Shown here one piece after another: positions 41,155-50,400 of a DNA stretch of 64,000 nt; position 1 is the stretch's first letter, and each line of letters opens with the position of its first letter. The notes beneath the pieces were generated by a model that saw only the letters and a list, made by a program, of their open reading frames with translations, did not search any database and was not told the DNA's origin. The position numbers were made by a program, and so were the translations under genes. This DNA is from Haloactinopolyspora alba (GTDB taxonomy: Bacteria; Actinomycetota; Actinomycetes; Jiangellales; Jiangellaceae), in the NCBI RefSeq assembly GCF_003014555.1, contig NZ_PYGE01000003.1, positions 258,206-322,205 of the forward strand, written 5' to 3'.

Positions 41155-42447
41155 ATGCGGATCCTCGTCGTCTCGTGGGAGTACCCCCCGGTCATCTACG
41201 GCGGGCTGGGGCGGCACGTGCAACGCCTCACCGAAGGTCTCGTCAGCGACGGACACGACGTCAGTGTCGTCACCCAGACCCACCCGGACGCCCCGGACGA
41301 AGAGGACGTGCACGGGGTCCGGGTGCTGCGCGTCCGCCCGGACCCGCCTGCCGGCCCGGAACGGCCCACGGACCTCGTGCCGTGGGTCCTCGCGCTCAAC
41401 ACCAGCCTCATCCGCGCCGCACACCACCTGACCCGCGAGTGGCTGCCCGACGTGGTGCACGCACACGACTGGGTCGACGCCCACGCCGGCATCAACCTCG
41501 CCCGCGCCCTCGACCGTCCGCTCGTGGCCACCGTGCACGCCACCGAAGCCGGGCTTTGGGACGGCTGGCTGTCGACGCCGCTGTCGCGCGCCCGGCACGA
41601 CATCGAGGCATGGATGGTCGCCGAGGCCGGCCGGACCATCGTCTGCTCCGAGGCGATGCGCGTCGAGGCCTCCGCCGCGTTCGACGTCCCGCCCGACGAC
41701 CTGACGGTCATCCTCAACGCCGTGGACCAGCCGGCGTGGAGCACCCCGCCGCGGGCACGCGAGCAGATGCGCGAACGGTTCGGCATCCCGCCGACGACAC
41801 CGATGCTGGTCTTCGGCGGCCGGCTCGAGTGGGAGAAGGGCGCCGACATCTGCATCGAGGCGCTGGCCCAGGTGCGTCAGCGCCACCACGACGCACGGCT
41901 CGTCCTCGCGGGCGCGGGCAGCCAGGAGGTGGAGCTGCGCCGGCTGGCCCAGCGGCTGCAGATCGACCACGTCGTGCAGTTCGCCGGGCGCCTCGACCAG
42001 TCCGACCTGGCGGCGTTGTTCGGGACGGCCGACGTCGCCCTCGTCCCCAGCTCGTACGAGCCGTTCGGCATCGTCGCGCTGGAGGCCGGCGCCGCCGGCA
42101 CACCGGTGATCGCCGGCGACAGCGGTGGGCTGCGCGAAGTCGTCGAGCACGACGTCACCGGCCTGCTGGTCCCGCCGCGCGACACGATGGATCTCGCCGC
42201 CGCGGTGCTGCGCGTGCTGGACGAGCCCGGGCTCTCCGACCGCCTGGTCCAGGCCGCGCACCAGCGCACCGCGAAGGATTTCGTGTGGTCCGTGGTGGCG
42301 CGGGAAACCGAGAAGGTCTACGCCTCCGCCATCACCGAGCCGCGACCGCCACGGCCCCGGCCCGCTCCCGCCGTCGACGGCAACGTGCTGGCCGACCGGC
42401 CGGAGTCAGTCCGGCAGGCGTGGCGGCGTGCCCGCGGCGACCTCTGA
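41155..42447 (+). CDS. Family 4 glycosyltransferase
   Basis: A 430-residue GT-B enzyme. The N-terminal domain starts MRILVVSWEYPPVIYGGLGRH (acceptor loop) and has VVHAHDWVD. The C-terminal donor domain has FGGRLEWEKGADICIEAL and the nucleotide-sugar E-x7-E motif in SSYEPFGIVALEAGAAGTP. It probably transfers a glucose-type sugar from a nucleotide donor in the cytoplasm. Glycogen or maltosyl synthesis is possible given glgX 12 kb away, but this is not shown. Its 3' end overlaps the HTTM-1 gene by 42 bp. Confidence 0.9.
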   Translation: MRILVVSWEYPPVIYGGLGRHVQRLTEGLVSDGHDVSVVTQTHPDAPDEEDVHGVRVLRVRPDPPAGPERPTDLVPWVLALNTSLIRAAHHLTREWLPDVVHAHDWVDAHAGINLARALDRPLVATVHATEAGLWDGWLSTPLSRARHDIEAWMVAEAGRTIVCSEAMRVEASAAFDVPPDDLTVILNAVDQPAWSTPPRAREQMRERFGIPPTTPMLVFGGRLEWEKGADICIEALAQVRQRHHDARLVLAGAGSQEVELRRLAQRLQIDHVVQFAGRLDQSDLAALFGTADVALVPSSYEPFGIVALEAGAAGTPVIAGDSGGLREVVEHDVTGLLVPPRDTMDLAAAVLRVLDEPGLSDRLVQAAHQRTAKDFVWSVVARETEKVYASAITEPRPPRPRPAPAVDGNVLADRPESVRQAWRRARGDL

Positions 42448-43551
42448 GCCGTCCGCCGGGCGTTCGCGCCGGCTCGGCGCCGTCGGCACCGGCTCGCCGG
42501 GCGCCCCGCTGTCCGTGCCGTCCCCGGCCGTCGCGTCTCCGTCCCCGGCCGTCGCGTCTCCGTCCCCGGCCGTGGCGTCCCCTTCGCCGCGCCGGGACCG
42601 CCGGAGCCACCGCGCGAGCGCCCGGTACGTCACGTCACGGACGAAGACGGCGTCAGCGGCGATCATCGCCAGCGAGAACCACGGCAGCGCCATCGTCACC
42701 GCGATGCCCACGTGCATCGAGAAGATCAGCAGCAGCGCGACCACCCGGGTGCCGCGGCGCATGAGCAGCAGCGGGAACAGCACCTGCACGAACACCGTCA
42801 CGTAGCTGCCGGCGGTGACGAACAGTCCGCTCGCGTAGACGATCTCGTTCAGCGCGGGCCACGAGACGTACTGGTCGATCTGCAGCGGGTAGTAGAGCCC
42901 GACCCCCTCCTGCCACATGTCGCCCTGGACCTTCGACAGCCCGGACGTCATGTAGACGATGAAGATCTGGGCGGACACCGCCAGCAGCGCGACGTTGTGG
43001 AACAGCACCCCCGTCCACGACGGCAGCGGCACCAGCGGCCGGTAGTCCTCTCGGGCGCGGCGGCGCGCGTCGAGTGACCAGTGCCTCGCGGTGTCGGCGA
43101 AGCACAGGAACAGCAGCATGATGCGGACCAGGTTGTCGCCGGCATCGTCGGCGATCGGGTTCAGCCGCATCAGCGAGGCGACGGCGATCATCAGCAGCGG
43201 CGTCACGACCCTGGTCCGCCAACCCAGCATGAACGCCACAGCCAGCGCCATGAGCAGCAGATACTTCAGCGTGAACACGGCCGCCGGGTCACCGGCGCCG
43301 AACACCCAGGTGAACGGGAACCCGTAGTCGTCGACGGTCAGCCACGGCGAGAGCCAGCGTGCGCCGGGGCCCCACACGTAGTGCCGGTCGGCGAAGTTCA
43401 CCGTCAACGTGCCGAGGATCATGACGCCGAACAGGATCCGCATGACGGCGAGCCCGTACGTCGCCTTCTTGCCGTCGAAGAGCCACCGCTCACCGGAGTC
43501 GAGGACGCGGCCCATTCCGGCGGTGATCTCCCGCCACGCTTCGCCGATCAT
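42406..43551 (-). CDS. HTTM-domain (gamma-carboxylase-like) membrane protein 1
   Basis: A 381-residue multi-pass membrane protein of the HTTM family, related to vitamin-K-dependent gamma-glutamyl carboxylase. Landmarks: SGERWLFDGKKATYGLA, DRHYVWGP, LGWRTRVVTPLLM, and YMTSGLSKVQGDMW. The Lys in SGLSKVQ (residue 207) lines up by eye with the catalytic Lys218 segment of human GGCX (GVKKLDADW). The tail after the last helix carries three 7-residue repeats (GDATAGD). Its ATG overlaps the stop of DUF5819-1 (ATGA). True carboxylase activity is not shown. Confidence 0.85.
   Translation of the reverse strand: MIGEAWREITAGMGRVLDSGERWLFDGKKATYGLAVMRILFGVMILGTLTVNFADRHYVWGPGARWLSPWLTVDDYGFPFTWVFGAGDPAAVFTLKYLLLMALAVAFMLGWRTRVVTPLLMIAVASLMRLNPIADDAGDNLVRIMLLFLCFADTARHWSLDARRRAREDYRPLVPLPSWTGVLFHNVALLAVSAQIFIVYMTSGLSKVQGDMWQEGVGLYYPLQIDQYVSWPALNEIVYASGLFVTAGSYVTVFVQVLFPLLLMRRGTRVVALLLIFSMHVGIAVTMALPWFSLAMIAADAVFVRDVTYRALARWLRRSRRGEGDATAGDGDATAGDGDATAGDGTDSGAPGEPVPTAPSRRERPADGSEVAAGTPPRLPD
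42520..42582 (-). repeat. Three 21-bp tandem repeats encoding the HTTM-1 tail
   Basis: Units at 42520-42540, 42541-42561 and 42562-42582. The first two are identical and the third has two changes. They encode GDATAGD-type heptapeptides in a cytoplasmic or exposed acidic tail. The period is a multiple of three, so copy-number change would not shift the frame. Confidence 0.85.
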
Positions 43552-44375
43552 TCCTGCAGTCCTTCGACGGTGCGGGCGAACGCCGACTCGTCCTGCTCGC
43601 TGTCGACCAGGACCGGCCGCCAGCCGAACTCGCGGGTGCTGTGCGACGGGTGCTGCGGCTCCGGCTCCATGCGCTCGTCCCATCGCGGCACCGGGGTGCG
43701 CCGCAGCTCGAACTGGACGGCGACGACGTCACGCCCCCAGATCGCCTTCGCGAACTGCGTGGCGTACCCGGTCGTGACCCGGTCGGCGCGGACGACGTTG
43801 GCCACCTCCGACGACGTCTCCCCGCCCTGAGAGTCGATGAGATCGCCGGCGAGCGGGCGCCAGTCGGCCATGTCCCGGTAGTCGTCGGCCACGATCTCCT
43901 GCTGCTCGTCGGTCAGGTCGTACCAGGCCGAGCTGAGCCGCCGGTGCAGGTTGGACGAGAGGCGGCTCGCCCGCGACGGCGCGGGGTTGTGATGGACGAG
44001 ACTCCACTCCAACTGGGTGGGGTTGCGCCATTCGGTGACCTCGACGTCGCCGGTCTGCGGATCACGCACCTGCGCCCGCACCAGCAGCTCGTCCTCGGCG
44101 TTGATCGGGTTGGGCGCGAACAGGCTCCAGTTCTGCACGAAGAACGGCCGCATGTAGCCGTTGACCTCGGCGGCGACCGACTCACTGACCGGGCTGGACG
44201 GCGCGTTCCACAGGAACGTGGCCGCGAAGTGGATCCCCACGAGACCGACGAGGAAGAACGCGAGCCCCTTTGCGACAGGCGGGGGCTCAGCCGCGCGCCG
44301 GCCACCGTCCGCGGCGTGCGGACCTGCGGCGTCCTCGCGGCGCACCGGCTTGCCCGGCGAGTTCTCCTCCGACAC
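43548..44375 (-). CDS. DUF5819-family protein 1 (partner of HTTM-1)
   Basis: A 275-residue protein with a disordered basic N-terminus (~35 residues), one hydrophobic segment (GLAFFLVGLVGIHFAATFLW), then a soluble domain on the outer face: FFVQNWSLFAPNPINAEDELLVRAQVRD and YATQFAKAIWGRDVVAVQFELRRTPVP. The motif (Q)(N/D)W(S/N)LFAP-P is shared with the second copy. DUF5819 proteins are known as neighbours of HTTM proteins; function is unknown. Coupled to HTTM-1 by ATGA and separated from HTTM-2 by 11 bp. Confidence 0.85.
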   Translation of the reverse strand: MSEENSPGKPVRREDAAGPHAADGGRRAAEPPPVAKGLAFFLVGLVGIHFAATFLWNAPSSPVSESVAAEVNGYMRPFFVQNWSLFAPNPINAEDELLVRAQVRDPQTGDVEVTEWRNPTQLEWSLVHHNPAPSRASRLSSNLHRRLSSAWYDLTDEQQEIVADDYRDMADWRPLAGDLIDSQGGETSSEVANVVRADRVTTGYATQFAKAIWGRDVVAVQFELRRTPVPRWDERMEPEPQHPSHSTREFGWRPVLVDSEQDESAFARTVEGLQE

Positions 44376-44386
44376 GGGAGGCCAGG

Positions 44387-45529
44387 CTAGTAGATGAGCT
44401 CACCGGCCGGTTGCCGACGTTCCGGTCCCGGACCGGCGGGTTCGGTCGGGTGCGCGTCGAGCGAGTCGTCCGCCGGTTCGCCGCTGTCCGGTGGCTCGTC
44501 CGGCGCCGGGCGCCGGCGCCGTCTGCGCTGCCAGGCACCGCGGACCTGCTGCGCCACCGCGCGGTAGGTGCTGTCGCGCACGAACACCTGATCGCCGGCC
44601 ATGATGAACAGCGAGAAGAACGGCAGCCCCATGATCACCGCGATGCCCGCGTGCATCCCCAGGACGCCGACGAGGCCGAACACCCGGGTGGTGCGCCGCA
44701 TCAGCAGCAGCGGGAAGAACAGCTGGATGAACACCGAGAAGTACGACACCGCCAGCACGCCGAAGGCGTTGGCCGACAACAGGTCGTTGAGGAACGGCCA
44801 CGGCCGGTAGTGGCTCACCTGCAACGGGTAGAAGACCGCGGTGCCGTCCTGCCAGTACTCGCCCTGGATCTTGTACATGGCCGAGGCGACGTAGATGATG
44901 CAGACCTGTCCGGCCACGGCGAGCACGGACAGGTTGTGCAGCAGGGTCGCCAGCAGGCTCGCGTTCCGCCGCACCCGCGCCGGCGGCGTCGGCAACGTGG
45001 CCAGCAACCGGCCCGCCGTGCCACGTGCCGCGCGGGCGCGGCGCCGCGCGTCCAGCGACCATCGTCCGGAAATGTCGGCGAAGCACAGGTAGATCAGCAG
45101 GATCCGGAAGATGTTGTCGCTCTGGTCGCCGTAGAGCGGGTTGGACTCGATCAGGCTGACCCAGCAGACGAGCAACAGCGGCGCGACGACCCGGGTCCGC
45201 CACCCGAGCGTCAGCGCAATCGCCAGCGCCAGCACGACCAGCAGCTTCACGGTGAGCTCTGTCGGCGCGCTGCCGCCCGCGAACAGCGTGAACGGCCAGT
45301 CGAACCCGCCGTTGCGCTCCAGCGGCGACATCCACTGGGATGCGTCACCCCAGAGGTAGTGCCGGTTGCTCCAGTTCGCCAGCAGGAACCAGACGGCGCC
45401 GAGCCCGAAGATGATCCGGACGACCGCGACACCGTAGCTGGCTCGCCTCGCGTCCAGAAGCCACCGTTCACCGAACTCGATCCGGCCGCCGATGTGGTCC
45501 AGCGCGGCGTCGTACGCCCTTCTGATCAC
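44387..45529 (-). CDS. HTTM-domain (gamma-carboxylase-like) membrane protein 2
   Basis: A 380-residue paralogue of HTTM-1 with the same landmarks: FGERWLLDARRASYGVA, NRHYLWGD, LGWRTRVVAPLLL and YVASAMYKIQGEYW (Lys220 equivalent to HTTM-1 Lys207). The GTG start overlaps the stop of DUF5819-2 (GTGA). The tail is Arg/Pro/acidic (RRRRRRPAPDEPPDSGEP) and lacks the heptad repeats of HTTM-1. The two HTTM/DUF5819 pairs form a four-gene run made by tandem duplication and clear divergence. Confidence 0.85.
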   Translation of the reverse strand: MIRRAYDAALDHIGGRIEFGERWLLDARRASYGVAVVRIIFGLGAVWFLLANWSNRHYLWGDASQWMSPLERNGGFDWPFTLFAGGSAPTELTVKLLVVLALAIALTLGWRTRVVAPLLLVCWVSLIESNPLYGDQSDNIFRILLIYLCFADISGRWSLDARRRARAARGTAGRLLATLPTPPARVRRNASLLATLLHNLSVLAVAGQVCIIYVASAMYKIQGEYWQDGTAVFYPLQVSHYRPWPFLNDLLSANAFGVLAVSYFSVFIQLFFPLLLMRRTTRVFGLVGVLGMHAGIAVIMGLPFFSLFIMAGDQVFVRDSTYRAVAQQVRGAWQRRRRRRPAPDEPPDSGEPADDSLDAHPTEPAGPGPERRQPAGELIY

Positions 45530-46275
45530 GACCCGAACCTCTCGATCGCGTCCGTGAACGCGCCCTCGTCCTGCGCGTCGTAGCGGTAGAGCGGCCGCCG
45601 GCCGAACTGCCGCTCGGTCACCTCGGGTTCGTCGCCGCGATCGTCGAACCGGGGCGCCCGGGTCACGCGGATCTTGAACTCGACGTAGGCGAAGTCTTGG
45701 TCCCTGCCCCACCGGGCCCATACGAACTGCGTCGCGTAGGCGGCCATCGCCCGGTCCAGCCGCAGCACGTACGAGATCCGCTCGTCCGAACTGTGCTCGT
45801 CCAGGGCGACCATCCGCGCTTCCATCCGGTCCCAGGCGTCGGTGTGGTAGTCACCCGAGAGCACGGACCGTTCCGCCGGCGTGACCTCGCGGTACTGCTC
45901 GCGCATGTGGCCGGCGAGGCGACGGGTGACGATGCCGGCGCGCGACGGCGCGAGGCTGTGCAGGACGTTGCCGTCCACCTCGGTCTCGGTCGCGCTGACC
46001 CAGTCGGTGGAACGCTCGTCGTCGTACCATCCGCGGACCAGCAGGTCGTACTCGACGCTGATGGGCGTCGGAGCGAACAGGTTCCAGTCCTGCTGGAACA
46101 TCGGGTACATGTACGACGTCAACGACTCGCCGAGGCTCTGCTTGGCCGCGTTGGCCGGGCCGACGTAGACGGCGGTGGCGAACAGGTGCGCGCAGAGCAA
46201 CGCGCCCAGCATCCCCGCGACGACCTTGATCCAGATGGGCCGGTTGCCCGGCGTCTCTTCGGTTCGCTTGCTCAC
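45526..46275 (-). CDS. DUF5819-family protein 2 (partner of HTTM-2)
   Basis: A 249-residue paralogue of DUF5819-1: one hydrophobic segment near the N-terminus (IKVVAGMLGALLCAHLFATAV), then MFQQDWNLFAPTPISVEYDLLVRG and YATQFVWARWGRDQDFAYVEFKIRVTRAPRF. First gene of the four-gene run. It starts 116 bp after the stop of an LPDTG surface-protein gene on the same strand, with a strong hairpin between them. Confidence 0.85.
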   Translation of the reverse strand: MSKRTEETPGNRPIWIKVVAGMLGALLCAHLFATAVYVGPANAAKQSLGESLTSYMYPMFQQDWNLFAPTPISVEYDLLVRGWYDDERSTDWVSATETEVDGNVLHSLAPSRAGIVTRRLAGHMREQYREVTPAERSVLSGDYHTDAWDRMEARMVALDEHSSDERISYVLRLDRAMAAYATQFVWARWGRDQDFAYVEFKIRVTRAPRFDDRGDEPEVTERQFGRRPLYRYDAQDEGAFTDAIERFGS

Positions 46276-46319
46276 GTGCCGCCCCTCACGGGTACCGAGT
46301 CAGGCGTGGACGTACCGAG

Positions 46320-46360
46320 ACCGGCGGGCCCACCGTCACGCACGTGGTGGGCCCGCCGGT
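46320..46360 (-). terminator. Strong hairpin downstream of surface protein 1
   Basis: Perfect 15-bp arms, ACCGGCGGGCCCACC (46320-46334) and its complement (46346-46360), around an 11-base loop. It starts 31 bases after the stop of the choice-of-anchor-like gene. There is no T-run, as is common in high-GC actinobacteria. It could partly separate the surface-protein transcript from the DUF5819/HTTM run. Confidence 0.75.
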
Positions 46361-46391
46361 TCATCGTGTCAACGACAGTGCGACCGGCGCC

Positions 46392-47996
46392 TCAGGCCTC
46401 GGTCACACCGCGCTTGCGGGACACGGCGTACGCCGCGAGCCCGCCGGCGAGCATCAGGCCCAGGCCGATGATGAGCAGCTGGCTGGAGCCGGCACCGGTG
46501 TCGGGCAGCTCGTCGCCGCCGTTCTCGGCGCCGCCGGCGTCAGCCTCACCGTCGGTCTCGGTGCCGTCGACCTCAGTGCCGTCGACCTCGGTCCCGTCGA
46601 CCTCAGTGCCGTCGACCTCGGTCCCGTCGACCTCAGTGCCGTCCACCTCGGTCCCGTCGACCTCGGTCCCGTCGACCTCAGTGCCGTCCACCTCAGTGCC
46701 GTCCACCTCAGTGCCGTCCACCTCAGTGCCGTCCACCTCAGTGCCGTCCACCTCAGTGCCGTCGACCTCAGTGCCGTCGACCTCAGTGCCGTCGACCTCC
46801 GTGCCGTCGACCTCAGTGCCGTCGACCTCAGTGCCGTCCACCTCGGTCTCCTGACCGGGGTCGGCGAGCGTGTTCGGGCCGACCGTCGACTCGGCGAGAG
46901 TCAGCGAGACGCCACCCTGAACGTCGGGCAGCAGCGTCGCCTGCAGAGCGGCCACGCTGTACTCCTCCGACATGGTGTCCCGGGTCTCGATCGCGGACTG
47001 TCCGTCCGACGGGGCCGGCTGGTCCGGCTGCACGTTCACCTTGACCGACACGAGGCCGGACAGCGCCTCCGACAGGCCGTCGGTCAGGTTCTCGACGCCG
47101 AGGCTGCCGAGCAGGTCGCCCAGCGCACCGCCGAGCTCGTCGCCGAGCAGGCCGGACAGGATGCTGTCGATCGCGTCGAACAGCGCCGGCCCGATCAGCT
47201 CGGTGTTCGGGGGGAGCGTGTTGAGCCCCTCGAACACCTTGTCGAGGTCGATCGTGATGGTGCCGTTCTCGAGGTCGACGTCGACGCCCTGCGCCTTTGC
47301 CTCCTCCAGCTCCGGCACGGTCGGGCCGTTGGCGCCCAGCCCGAGCGGCCCGCCGGTCTGGCCGCCGAGCAGCGGCACCGTGATCACCAGCTTGCCACCG
47401 GCGATCTCGTAGTCCCGCTGGACTTCGAACGCGTCGCTGTCGTTCGGCTGCAGATGCGCCTCGGACGAGATCGCGCCCAGCTCCAGCTGGACATCGGCGA
47501 TGAGGTCAGTGAACTCCTCACCCAGCAGATCGGTCAGGTTGAACGTCGCATTGGCCGGGAAGCCCGCGTCGACGCCGGTACCGATGGCTCCGTTGTCGGC
47601 GACGGCGCCGGTCGCGGCATGCGACGTGGCGCCGTCCTCGGCGGTGGCCCACTGGTTGGCCGCCCCGAGTTCGAGGATGTCGCTCAACGGCAGCTGGACG
47701 CCACCGGGAACGTTGACGTTGATCGCGTCGAGCACGGTCACGTCGAAGGGATTTGCGTCAGTGACCGGCTCCGGGTCGCCGAGGTTCTCGACCTCGACGC
47801 CCGCGACCTCGACGATCTCGTCCAGGTCCTGACCCAGGACCTGGCCGTCGAGGAACCGCGCAGCAGCGCGAGATTCATCGCCCTCGGCCGCTGCGGCGGG
47901 TGCAAGCCACGCACCCATCGCGAATACCGGGGCAAAACCAGCGACGAGCAGCGTTTTCGCAGCTCGGCGCCGGTGAACAACAGGTGTTGCAGGCAT
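46392..47996 (-). CDS. LPDTG wall-anchored surface protein with VDGTE repeats (choice-of-anchor-G-like)
   Basis: A 534-residue exported protein. A Sec signal ends near AAAAEGDESRA; the body (ARFLDGQVLGQDLD ... INVNVPGGVQLPLSDIL) resembles choice-of-anchor G proteins. Residues ~384-480 are 19 copies of VDGTE, an acidic stalk. The end is ELPDTGAGSSQLL, a helix and SRKRG, a sortase signal. I chose the ATG at 47996 because AGGAGA lies just upstream. Sortase would fix it to the cell wall. The next gene upstream, at 48562-50400, is a paralogue. Confidence 0.85.
   Translation of the reverse strand: MPATPVVHRRRAAKTLLVAGFAPVFAMGAWLAPAAAAEGDESRAAARFLDGQVLGQDLDEIVEVAGVEVENLGDPEPVTDANPFDVTVLDAINVNVPGGVQLPLSDILELGAANQWATAEDGATSHAATGAVADNGAIGTGVDAGFPANATFNLTDLLGEEFTDLIADVQLELGAISSEAHLQPNDSDAFEVQRDYEIAGGKLVITVPLLGGQTGGPLGLGANGPTVPELEEAKAQGVDVDLENGTITIDLDKVFEGLNTLPPNTELIGPALFDAIDSILSGLLGDELGGALGDLLGSLGVENLTDGLSEALSGLVSVKVNVQPDQPAPSDGQSAIETRDTMSEEYSVAALQATLLPDVQGGVSLTLAESTVGPNTLADPGQETEVDGTEVDGTEVDGTEVDGTEVDGTEVDGTEVDGTEVDGTEVDGTEVDGTEVDGTEVDGTEVDGTEVDGTEVDGTEVDGTEVDGTEVDGTEVDGTETDGEADAGGAENGGDELPDTGAGSSQLLIIGLGLMLAGGLAAYAVSRKRGVTEA
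46561..46845 (-). repeat. 19 x 15-bp tandem repeat (VDGTE)n
   Basis: Nineteen in-frame 15-bp units, GT(G/C)CCGTC(G/C)ACCTC(A/G/C) on the plus strand, many exact copies in runs (for example units 9-13). The order of variants shows block duplication by slippage. Each unit codes for Val-Asp-Gly-Thr-Glu. Confidence 0.97.
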
Positions 47997-48026
47997 GCCT
48001 TCTCCTCTTGGCATTTTGGCGGGCTC

Positions 48027-48561: not shown

Positions 48562-50400
48562 TCATCGCTGCGGCAATCCCCGGCGGCGGCTGACCGCATA
48601 GGCCGCGATGCCGCCGGCGAGCATGAGTGCGAGACCCAGGATCAGGAGCTGATTGGACGACGACCCGGTGTCGGGCAGTCCCGTACCGGCTCCGGCGCCA
48701 CCGGCACCACCGGCCGCGGCGTCACCACCGACAGCGCCACCAACGGCGCCGCCGACAGCGCCACCGTTCCGGGCCACGTCGGCCCCGGTCTCCTGACCGG
48801 CCTCGGCCACCGTGTTCTCGCCGACCTCGGAACGGGCCAGCGTCACGACCGCGGCCGGGTTCGCCGGCAGCACGGTGACCTGGACGGCGGCCACTCTGTA
48901 CGGACCGTCGCTCACCCGAGGCTCGGCCGTCGTGGACGGCAGCTGCGAGTGGTGCTCGTCGACCGGTTCCGCGGACACGTCCGGCTGGACGTTCAGCTTG
49001 ATGGACAGCAGCTGCGCCAGCGCCTCGCCGACGGGCGCGAGCGTGTCGGTCAGCCCTCCGAGCAGCCCGGCCGCCGTCTCACCCAGCGTGGTGAGCACGC
49101 CGCCCTCGGCGAACACCGTCTCGTCGATCGTGCCGCCGACCACCGCGAGGATCTGGTTCATCGTCTCGGCGATCACCGGCGCGATGAGGCCGGGGACGGT
49201 GCCGGTGCTGTTGTCCTCGATCTGCGCCTTGCCGCTGACGATGTTGCCGAGCGTGTCGTTCAGCACCAGGTCCAGCGTGCCGACCTGCGTCCCCAGGACG
49301 GGGTCGGTCACCTCTGCGTAGATCGCCAGGTCGAGCTCCGCCTTCTGCAGGGCGTCCTCGACCACGGCCACCAGGTCCTGGACGGCCTTGTCGAGCACCT
49401 CACCGACGGTCGCGGCCAGCTCGTCGAGGACCGCCTGGCTCAGGACCTCGGTGTTCGGAGCCTGCCCGTTCAGGTCGCCGAGCAGAACGCCCAGGTCGAC
49501 GACGAGCGTCCCTTCGGCCAGGTTCAGCTGGACCCCGGTCCCCTCGCCGATCGGGGTGGCGAGGAACTCCTGGACCGCGCTCTGCAGGTCGGTCTCGAGC
49601 GTCGCGGTCACGTCGACCTTCTCGGCGCCGATCAACGCCAGCAGGTCGGTCAGCGCCGACAGGCTCTCGACGGCGCCGGTGACCGAGCCCTCGGGTCCGA
49701 CGAGCCCGTTGACCGTCTCGTCGACCGTCCCGACCGCCTGCTCGACCTTGGGGCCGAGATCGGCCAGCGCGGGCACGCCGAGCTTCAGCTTCCCGTTGGC
49801 GATCTCGTAGTCGCGGGTCAGCTCGAAGGCGCCGTCGGCCGATTCCGGTCCCACGAGGTGGGCCTCGGACGAGACGGCGCCGAGCTCGAGCTCGACGTCG
49901 GCCACCAGGCCGGTGAGCTTGTCACCCAGGACGTCGCTGAGGTCGAACGTGGCGTTGCCCGGGAAGCCCGCGTCGACGCCGGTGCCCACACCGCCGTTGT
50001 CGGCCACGGCGCCGGTCGCCGCGTGCGAGGCGCCCGCGTCCTCGGCGGTGGCCCACTGGTTCACCGCGCCGAGCTGAACGATGTCGCTCAGCGGGAGCTG
50101 CACGCCGCCGGGAACGTTGACATTGATCGAGTCGAGAACCGTCAGGTCGAGCGGGTTCGTCGCCGTCACGGGGTCCGGCTCACCGAGATTCTCGACCTCG
50201 ACGCCGGCCAGTTCGGCCGTGTCGTCCAGATTCGTTCCGAGGATCTCACCGGAAAGAAACCGCGCCCCGGCACGGGACGAGTCACCTTCGGCCGCGGACG
50301 CCGGCGTCAGCGACGCGCCTACGGCGAGTACCGGAGCCAGACCCAGCGCGAGCAGGGCGCGCGTCGTTCGTCGCCGACCGTGTGTCTCCGTGTGTGCCAT
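48562..50400 (-). CDS. LPDTG wall-anchored surface protein 2 (choice-of-anchor-G-like)
   Basis: A 612-residue paralogue of the protein at 46392. Shared blocks include ARFLSGEILGTNLDD, VEVENLGEPDPVT, INVNVPGGVQLPLSDIVQLGA and VDAGFPGNATFDLSD. The signal peptide ends near TPASAAEGDSSRA. It lacks the VDGTE stalk; in its place is a Gly/Ala linker (GGAVGGAVGGAVGGDAAAGG). The end is TGLPDTGSSSNQLL, a helix and SRRRG. AGGAG lies 6-7 bases before the ATG. Probably displayed on the cell wall; binding partner unknown. Confidence 0.85.
   Translation of the reverse strand: MAHTETHGRRRTTRALLALGLAPVLAVGASLTPASAAEGDSSRAGARFLSGEILGTNLDDTAELAGVEVENLGEPDPVTATNPLDLTVLDSINVNVPGGVQLPLSDIVQLGAVNQWATAEDAGASHAATGAVADNGGVGTGVDAGFPGNATFDLSDVLGDKLTGLVADVELELGAVSSEAHLVGPESADGAFELTRDYEIANGKLKLGVPALADLGPKVEQAVGTVDETVNGLVGPEGSVTGAVESLSALTDLLALIGAEKVDVTATLETDLQSAVQEFLATPIGEGTGVQLNLAEGTLVVDLGVLLGDLNGQAPNTEVLSQAVLDELAATVGEVLDKAVQDLVAVVEDALQKAELDLAIYAEVTDPVLGTQVGTLDLVLNDTLGNIVSGKAQIEDNSTGTVPGLIAPVIAETMNQILAVVGGTIDETVFAEGGVLTTLGETAAGLLGGLTDTLAPVGEALAQLLSIKLNVQPDVSAEPVDEHHSQLPSTTAEPRVSDGPYRVAAVQVTVLPANPAAVVTLARSEVGENTVAEAGQETGADVARNGGAVGGAVGGAVGGDAAAGGAGGAGAGTGLPDTGSSSNQLLILGLALMLAGGIAAYAVSRRRGLPQR

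Follow-up and report, generated by a model that had tools for sequence, protein, structure and literature searches.

A conserved DUF5819-HTTM gene pair, a candidate GGCX-fold maturation system, lies beside low-complexity-tailed wall proteins in Haloactinopolyspora alba and other actinobacteria

Layout of the locus

A 64,000-nucleotide stretch of Haloactinopolyspora alba DNA (contig NZ_PYGE01000003.1, positions 258,206 to 322,205; hereafter the window, whose own numbering is used below unless another locus is named) was analysed for a minus-strand group of genes which encodes surface proteins of the choice-of-anchor G (ChG) type together with DUF5819 and HTTM proteins. The order by transcription is ChG (50400-48562), ChG (48014-46392), DUF5819 a, HTTM a, DUF5819 b and HTTM b. 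The features, with profile scores to be read against cut-offs of 27.7 bits (PF05090, gathering), 27.1 bits (PF19136, gathering) and 45 bits (NF033766, curated), are as follows:

48562..50400, minus strand: ChG paralog with a signal peptide (NF033766 256.9 bits, LPXTG match)
48664-48678, minus strand: LPDTG of the upstream ChG paralog
46392..48014, minus strand: repeat-tailed ChG protein, presumed partner or substrate (NF033766 194.1 bits, Gram_pos_anchor)
46494-46508, minus strand: LPDTG of the repeat-tailed ChG protein
46557..46841, minus strand: 19 perfect tandem copies of VDGTE, 15-base unit, residues 392-486 (TRF score 459)
45526..46275, minus strand: DUF5819 protein a, one N-terminal membrane helix and an outer domain (PF19136 96 bits)
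44387..45529, minus strand: HTTM protein a, 380 amino acids, GTG start (PF05090 44.5 bits)
44870-44872, minus strand: Lys220 in SAMYKIQ of HTTM a
43548..44375, minus strand: DUF5819 protein b (PF19136 130 bits)
42406..43551, minus strand: HTTM protein b, 381 amino acids, ATG start (PF05090 56.2 bits)
42931-42933, minus strand: Lys207 in SGLSKVQ of HTTM b
43135..43146, minus strand: Asp136-x-Gly138-Asp139 of HTTM b, at the place of GGCX N158-N159-H160-S161 (Glu pocket)

The DUF5819 and HTTM genes form two tandem pairs, with a 4-base stop/start overlap within each (GTGA in a, ATGA in b), the usual mark of translational coupling. An earlier note, made from the sequence alone, had described an exported protein with 19 copies of VDGTE and two HTTM proteins just downstream; this was confirmed, the genes forming an operon, the repeat being a perfect tandem and the protein which carries it wall-anchored, and the conserved Lys was found in both motifs, SGLSKVQ and SAMYKIQ. 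The surface gene was present where the note had put it, with the exception of its limit at 47996, as the gene runs 46392-48014. Overlooked at that stage were the second ChG protein just upstream, whose tail is rich in Gly, Ala and Val and has no Glu repeat, the arrangement as two tandem pairs, and the conservation of the DUF5819 pair across the order.

Conservation and linkage of the gene pair

Among the named loci, which are the best 80 of 558 confirmed DUF5819 relatives, HTTM was found directly downstream of DUF5819 in all 80, a strict ChG match lay within the locus in 35, and a low-complexity tail protein was in reach in 51, several of the others being cut by contig ends. The close named relatives of DUF5819 b were from Jiangella and Phytoactinopolyspora; in genomes of Phytoactinopolyspora type the two modules stand apart, and each pair is accompanied by a ChG gene of its own. 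An apparent DUF5819-HTTM fusion in Jiangella (open frames of 594 residues) was rejected as a gene-caller artefact, the upstream part having been read in another frame.

DUF5819 was present, nearly always in two copies, in 20 of 22 genomes of the window's order, the two misses being genomes which are 75% and 81% complete. In a class sample of 246 genomes, with co-occurrence read by hand from tables, DUF5819 was over the cut-off in 45, ChG in 26 and both in 22, while HTTM was over the cut-off in none of the four ChG genomes of this sample that have no DUF5819. ChG was found in 56, DUF5819 in 19 and both in 17 of the 150 genomes in the family of genome G121 (Fisher P 8e-7, uncorrected for phylogeny), and 13 of the 22 DUF5819 places over the cut-off in this family were within ~10 kb of a ChG match. 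The co-occurrence of HTTM and DUF5819 with repeat proteins that the note had proposed as a check was found far beyond the window's genome.

Tails of the linked ChG proteins

Linked and unlinked ChG proteins were compared within the G121 family, on genes called with a self-written GC-frame program rather than a standard caller. The linked set comprised 13 loci, of which 12 were scored, and the unlinked set was taken from 40 regions among 75 listed ChG rows. In 38 of these regions the profile found the ChG gene (L291 and L293 were dropped), and L093, from an earlier sample, brought the set to 39. By a composition criterion picked post hoc, with the data already seen, the tail was found in 12/12 scored ChG proteins beside DUF5819 and in 0/39 of those elsewhere; by a simpler one, which asked for 80 or more low-complexity residues (entropy <2.6 bits in 40 residues), it was found in 12/12 linked and 7/39 unlinked proteins (P 3e-7). 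The linked tails measured 91-772 residues. The thirteenth linked locus (L254), which was missed by the ChG profile, has a tail too, and at L247, which is cut by a contig end, the ChG gene lies ~4 kb downstream of DUF5819.

A wider set comprised 75 rows that a script had classed as linked, and the tail criterion held for 60 of them. The 15 exceptions were mostly VDGTE-type tails in which Gly or adjoining sequence diluted the composition, or stretches that were masked or cut by a contig end; the window paralog and L199 were further exceptions. The tails were of the types VDGTE, VDGVE, VEGTE, VDAD, DTAAD and EATDT, or mixtures of Ala, Asp, Ser, Thr and Asn. In 68 tails of adjacent ChG proteins proline never exceeded 2.6%, Asp made up at least 1% in 67 and Val likewise in 67, and Glu was below 1% in 10. 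Glu-rich tails (up to 32% Glu) were seen in Jiangella-type relatives, and Isoptericola (L167, L187) likewise carries VDGTE or VDGVE. The tail of an additional adjacent partner (L088) is of the NSGTD type, and its last stretch contains no Glu. Pro/Gly-rich linkers were commoner among unlinked wall proteins.

A further nine DUF5819 loci had no scoring ChG neighbour (seven from the G121 family, two Streptomyces-like), and in five of them (L255, L257, L258, L260 and L314) a tail partner was in reach. In some tail partners (L146, L150, L199) the place of the sorting signal at the end is taken by a domain which contains Cys and resembles a cell-wall-binding repeat.

Second copies in Streptomyces-like genomes

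The second DUF5819 copies of Streptomyces-like genomes stood beside proteins of the PF11999 ice-binding fold in five of seven cases, and all five of these proteins were repeat-tailed (GDAAT, TTTG or NTAGN). Low complexity alone was tried as a mark of PF11999 clients and failed to separate linked from unlinked proteins; as PF11999 proteins elsewhere are tailed as well, the outcome of this test was mixed. Low proline did separate the linked PF11999 tails (1-6% Pro) from most of the unlinked ones. Several unlinked PF11999 proteins of Jiangellaceae (L329-L331, L334, L335) have acidic DGTE-type tails with 2-11% Pro and an LPDTG; DUF5819-HTTM is encoded elsewhere in these genomes, and the proteins are possible clients in trans.

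In three Streptomyces-type loci DUF5819-HTTM comes after a small protein of 119-158 amino acids that looks exported (L193 7505-7864, L203 7439-7804 and L104 6344-6820, in the numbering of each locus), ends in FD or FDR and is possibly an SDP-like client. In four others, from Streptomyces-like genomes (L098, L100, L101, L105), the main DUF5819-HTTM copy lies beside genes of phenylacetate/acyl-CoA type (named by eye), without a tail partner.

Comparison of HTTM with GGCX

A profile of 77 HTTM proteins was compared with solved structures and the human gamma-carboxylase GGCX was the sole match (E 4.6e-10). A model of HTTM b (mean pLDDT 92.7) gave the same result: GGCX alone was convincing by Foldseek (E 4.5e-7), and by VIA 272 residues aligned to GGCX 41-329 (Z 20.5, rmsd 3.4), the next unrelated structure having Z 6.0. 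On this model, HTTM b is predicted to share the membrane-domain fold of GGCX.

Residues of GGCX were mapped onto HTTM by four alignments which concur, with conservation counted over the 77 proteins. The catalytic Lys218 corresponds to K207 of HTTM b (77/77), so that the note had aligned the motif Lys correctly by eye; as this Lys is common to all aligned HTTM proteins, it is by itself no sign of carboxylation. Trp223 corresponds to W213 (77/77), Phe299 to F292 (75/77), His287 to H280 (75/77) and Val210 to V199 (V or I in 72/77); Tyr211 and the small residue at position 214 (A214) are retained, and F286 and F294 face Met. VKOR was present in 20/20 good genomes of the window's order and was set aside as support for quinone epoxidation, being not specific, as VKOR serves other purposes too.

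In a cryo-EM report on GGCX (PMC12589487), N159, H160 and Y395 are described as holding the substrate Glu, and V210, W223, F299 and H160 as lining the quinone ring. Of the naphthoquinone pocket (V210, W223, F286, F294, F299, H160, M401), HTTM retains V210, W223 and F299; F286 and F294 are the positions with Met, H160 is changed and M401 is outside the aligned region. The Glu pocket is not retained: N159 is replaced by A137 (Q in 57/77) and H160 by G138 (G or S in 74/77), an invariant Asp139 adjoins these positions, and Y395 is outside the region to which HTTM aligns. The lumenal propeptide-binding domain of GGCX is also absent from HTTM b (381 amino acids), the alignment covering GGCX 41-329 only and the modelled part ending soon past it, at low confidence. 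Judged from the aligned residues, HTTM appears to have kept the proton-abstracting machinery of GGCX and not its Glu-specific part.

The structure comparison that the note had called for came out in two halves, a match in fold and Lys218 on the one hand, and a replaced Glu pocket and missing lumenal domain on the other. The likeness to GGCX (PDB 9wf3, 9bvk and others) consists of the membrane-domain fold, Lys218, Trp223, Phe299, His287, Tyr211 and the small residue 214; HTTM differs in lacking the propeptide-binding domain and the N159/H160/Y395 pocket, in having a separate DUF5819 partner and in having no Gla-type client. Near its end HTTM b carries a short repeat of its own (GDGDATA, 3.6 copies of 21 bases, 42518-42594), and its gene overlaps convergently (42406-42447) a plus-strand glycosyltransferase-like gene at 41155-42447, named by eye.

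DUF5819 and the SdpA/SdpB precedent

The model of DUF5819 b (residues 30-275, mean pLDDT 93.4) combines a single helix at the N terminus with an alpha/beta outer domain, which bears out the architecture proposed in the note. The idea that DUF5819 supplies the missing lumenal domain of GGCX was rejected, no resemblance being found with Foldseek or VIA. Against solved structures in general, Foldseek gave a best E of 0.14 among 266 weak matches and VIA a best Z of 4.0, for the helix only, a missing match being no proof of a new fold.

The closest functional precedent is SdpA/SdpB of Bacillus subtilis SDP toxin maturation (also YitP-YitO), in which a single-helix exported protein and an HTTM protein are likewise encoded beside an exported client; both are needed for SdpC processing (PMC6818787). 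The candidate clients of DUF5819-HTTM differ in being large wall-anchored tail proteins, and the gene order (client, DUF5819, HTTM) differs as well. The HTTM proteins matched TIGR04033 (SdpB) at 46.1 bits (b) and 37.1 bits (a), far below the curated cut-off of 178.4. DUF5819 and SdpA have in common a short QxWxxFxxxP motif, which in both lies about equally far from the membrane helix; homology between them was considered and is not established, as hhalign (E 0.1 and 0.0094, probability 0.6% and 4%) aligned the short motif alone. PF17418 (SdpA) matched neither DUF5819 protein of the window and nothing else in the genome.

An HTTM protein is also found beside a ribosomal peptide precursor in linaridin clusters (CrdG, corynaridin), where its role is called unclear (PMC9927463). 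The client there is a small peptide accompanied by other modification enzymes. In the open-licence literature, no paper was found that names DUF5819 or choice-of-anchor G, or that links SdpB with HTTM.

Discussion

The demonstrated gene linkage, fold, residue conservation and tail association are, in our view, best explained if DUF5819-HTTM is a GGCX-fold pair dedicated to the maturation of exported proteins with low-complexity tails, whatever its chemistry; we hold this with moderate confidence. The pair would act on the adjacently encoded surface protein during or after export, and clients would be marked by a long low-complexity tail, free of proline, that links the folded domain to the wall anchor. 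DUF5819 may hold or present the client outside the membrane, and HTTM would be the catalytic half. Since the latter has the membrane fold of GGCX and retains both the proton-abstracting Lys and several residues of the quinone pocket, its chemistry is probably menaquinol-driven base chemistry or a quinol-independent variant. That the pair modifies its partner, that the tail is the modified part and that quinol is involved are what we infer from these observations.

Several points weigh against this explanation. The tail criterion was chosen after the data had been seen, and kinship of the genomes was left uncorrected, related genomes not being independent. No single residue is common to all 68 tails, and the Gly/Ala tail of the window's own upstream paralog is weak. 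No tail partner was in reach of several DUF5819-HTTM pairs, among them L098, L100, L101, L103, L104, L105, L141, L143, L148, L256, L259 and L261; many Streptomyces pairs have no visible client, and two (L193, L203) adjoin an exported protein of ~120 residues instead. Many unlinked PF11999 proteins are tailed too, mostly with Pro-rich sequence.

On the reading proposed in the earlier note, HTTM would be a vitamin K (menaquinol)-dependent gamma-glutamyl carboxylase which converts the Glu of VDGTE to Gla and so makes a calcium-binding stalk. The GGCX fold, the aligned Lys218, the Glu-rich tails of Jiangella-type relatives, the VDGTE/VDGVE tails of Isoptericola and, for all its other uses, the presence of VKOR are consistent with such an enzyme. 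Glu substrate and Gla product are nevertheless unsupported: the Glu pocket is not retained, with A or Q and G or S at N159/H160 beside the invariant Asp and no Y395 region, the lumenal domain is absent and the window paralog has no Glu repeat. Moreover, relatives with the same gene order have almost Glu-free tails (VDAD, NSGTD, DTAAD, or Ala/Asp/Ser/Thr), among them L088 and 10 of the 68 tails counted above, which makes Glu-to-Gla conversion unlikely; the clients are defined by tail type and not by Glu. Gla formation on Glu repeats was accordingly rejected as the leading explanation and is, to our minds, very improbable, and the notion of a carboxylase-like enzyme acting on an exported repeat is partly supported, having gained as an association and lost as chemistry.

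Alternatively, the pair could be needed, as SdpA/SdpB are, to mature the partner by proteolysis or to release it as a cleaved surface fragment or toxin, with no side-chain chemistry. The TIGR04033 matches, the shared two-gene layout of an exported single-helix protein and an HTTM protein, the QxWxxFxxxP motif and the small exported partners in some Streptomyces all point this way, but homology of DUF5819 to SdpA is not established, the partners are wall-anchored proteins and not small toxins, and no protease motif turned up, none having been looked for; we consider this unlikely. The pair might also be a non-modifying helper in export, folding or anchoring of proline-free low-complexity proteins, or belong to co-regulated surface machinery. 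An association with a type of tail rather than with one residue, and the more frequent Pro/Gly-rich linkers of unlinked wall proteins, would fit such a helper. The near-invariant proton-abstracting Lys and several quinone-pocket residues indicate catalysis, however, and we rate a purely helping role as rather improbable.

If the maturation pair is indeed a modifying enzyme, the tails, which have no common residue except nearly always Asp and Val, favour a modification at Asp, or one which accepts several kinds of small residue, rather than gamma-carboxylation of Glu. A bolder form of this proposal, which we put forward tentatively and think doubtful, is that DUF5819-HTTM represents a widespread actinobacterial GGCX-fold, menaquinol-driven enzyme carrying out an undescribed, sequence-tolerant modification along proline-free wall-protein tails. 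Purely as ideas, this might be a modification at Asp or an alpha-carbon inversion of small residues, which would leave the mass unchanged. For linaridins, a review (PMC10373908) names grmL as the epimerase candidate.

Bacterial HTTM proteins are, to our knowledge, GGCX relatives whose clients are mostly undefined. A large set of candidate clients, conserved many times over and with a plain feature in common, is now available, and experiments in culturable strains of Microbacterium, Jiangella or Streptomyces can directly test what the bacterial relatives within the vitamin K carboxylase fold do. If the tails are modified, this would be a new type of surface-protein modification; if they are not, wall proteins of low complexity would have a helper system of a new kind.

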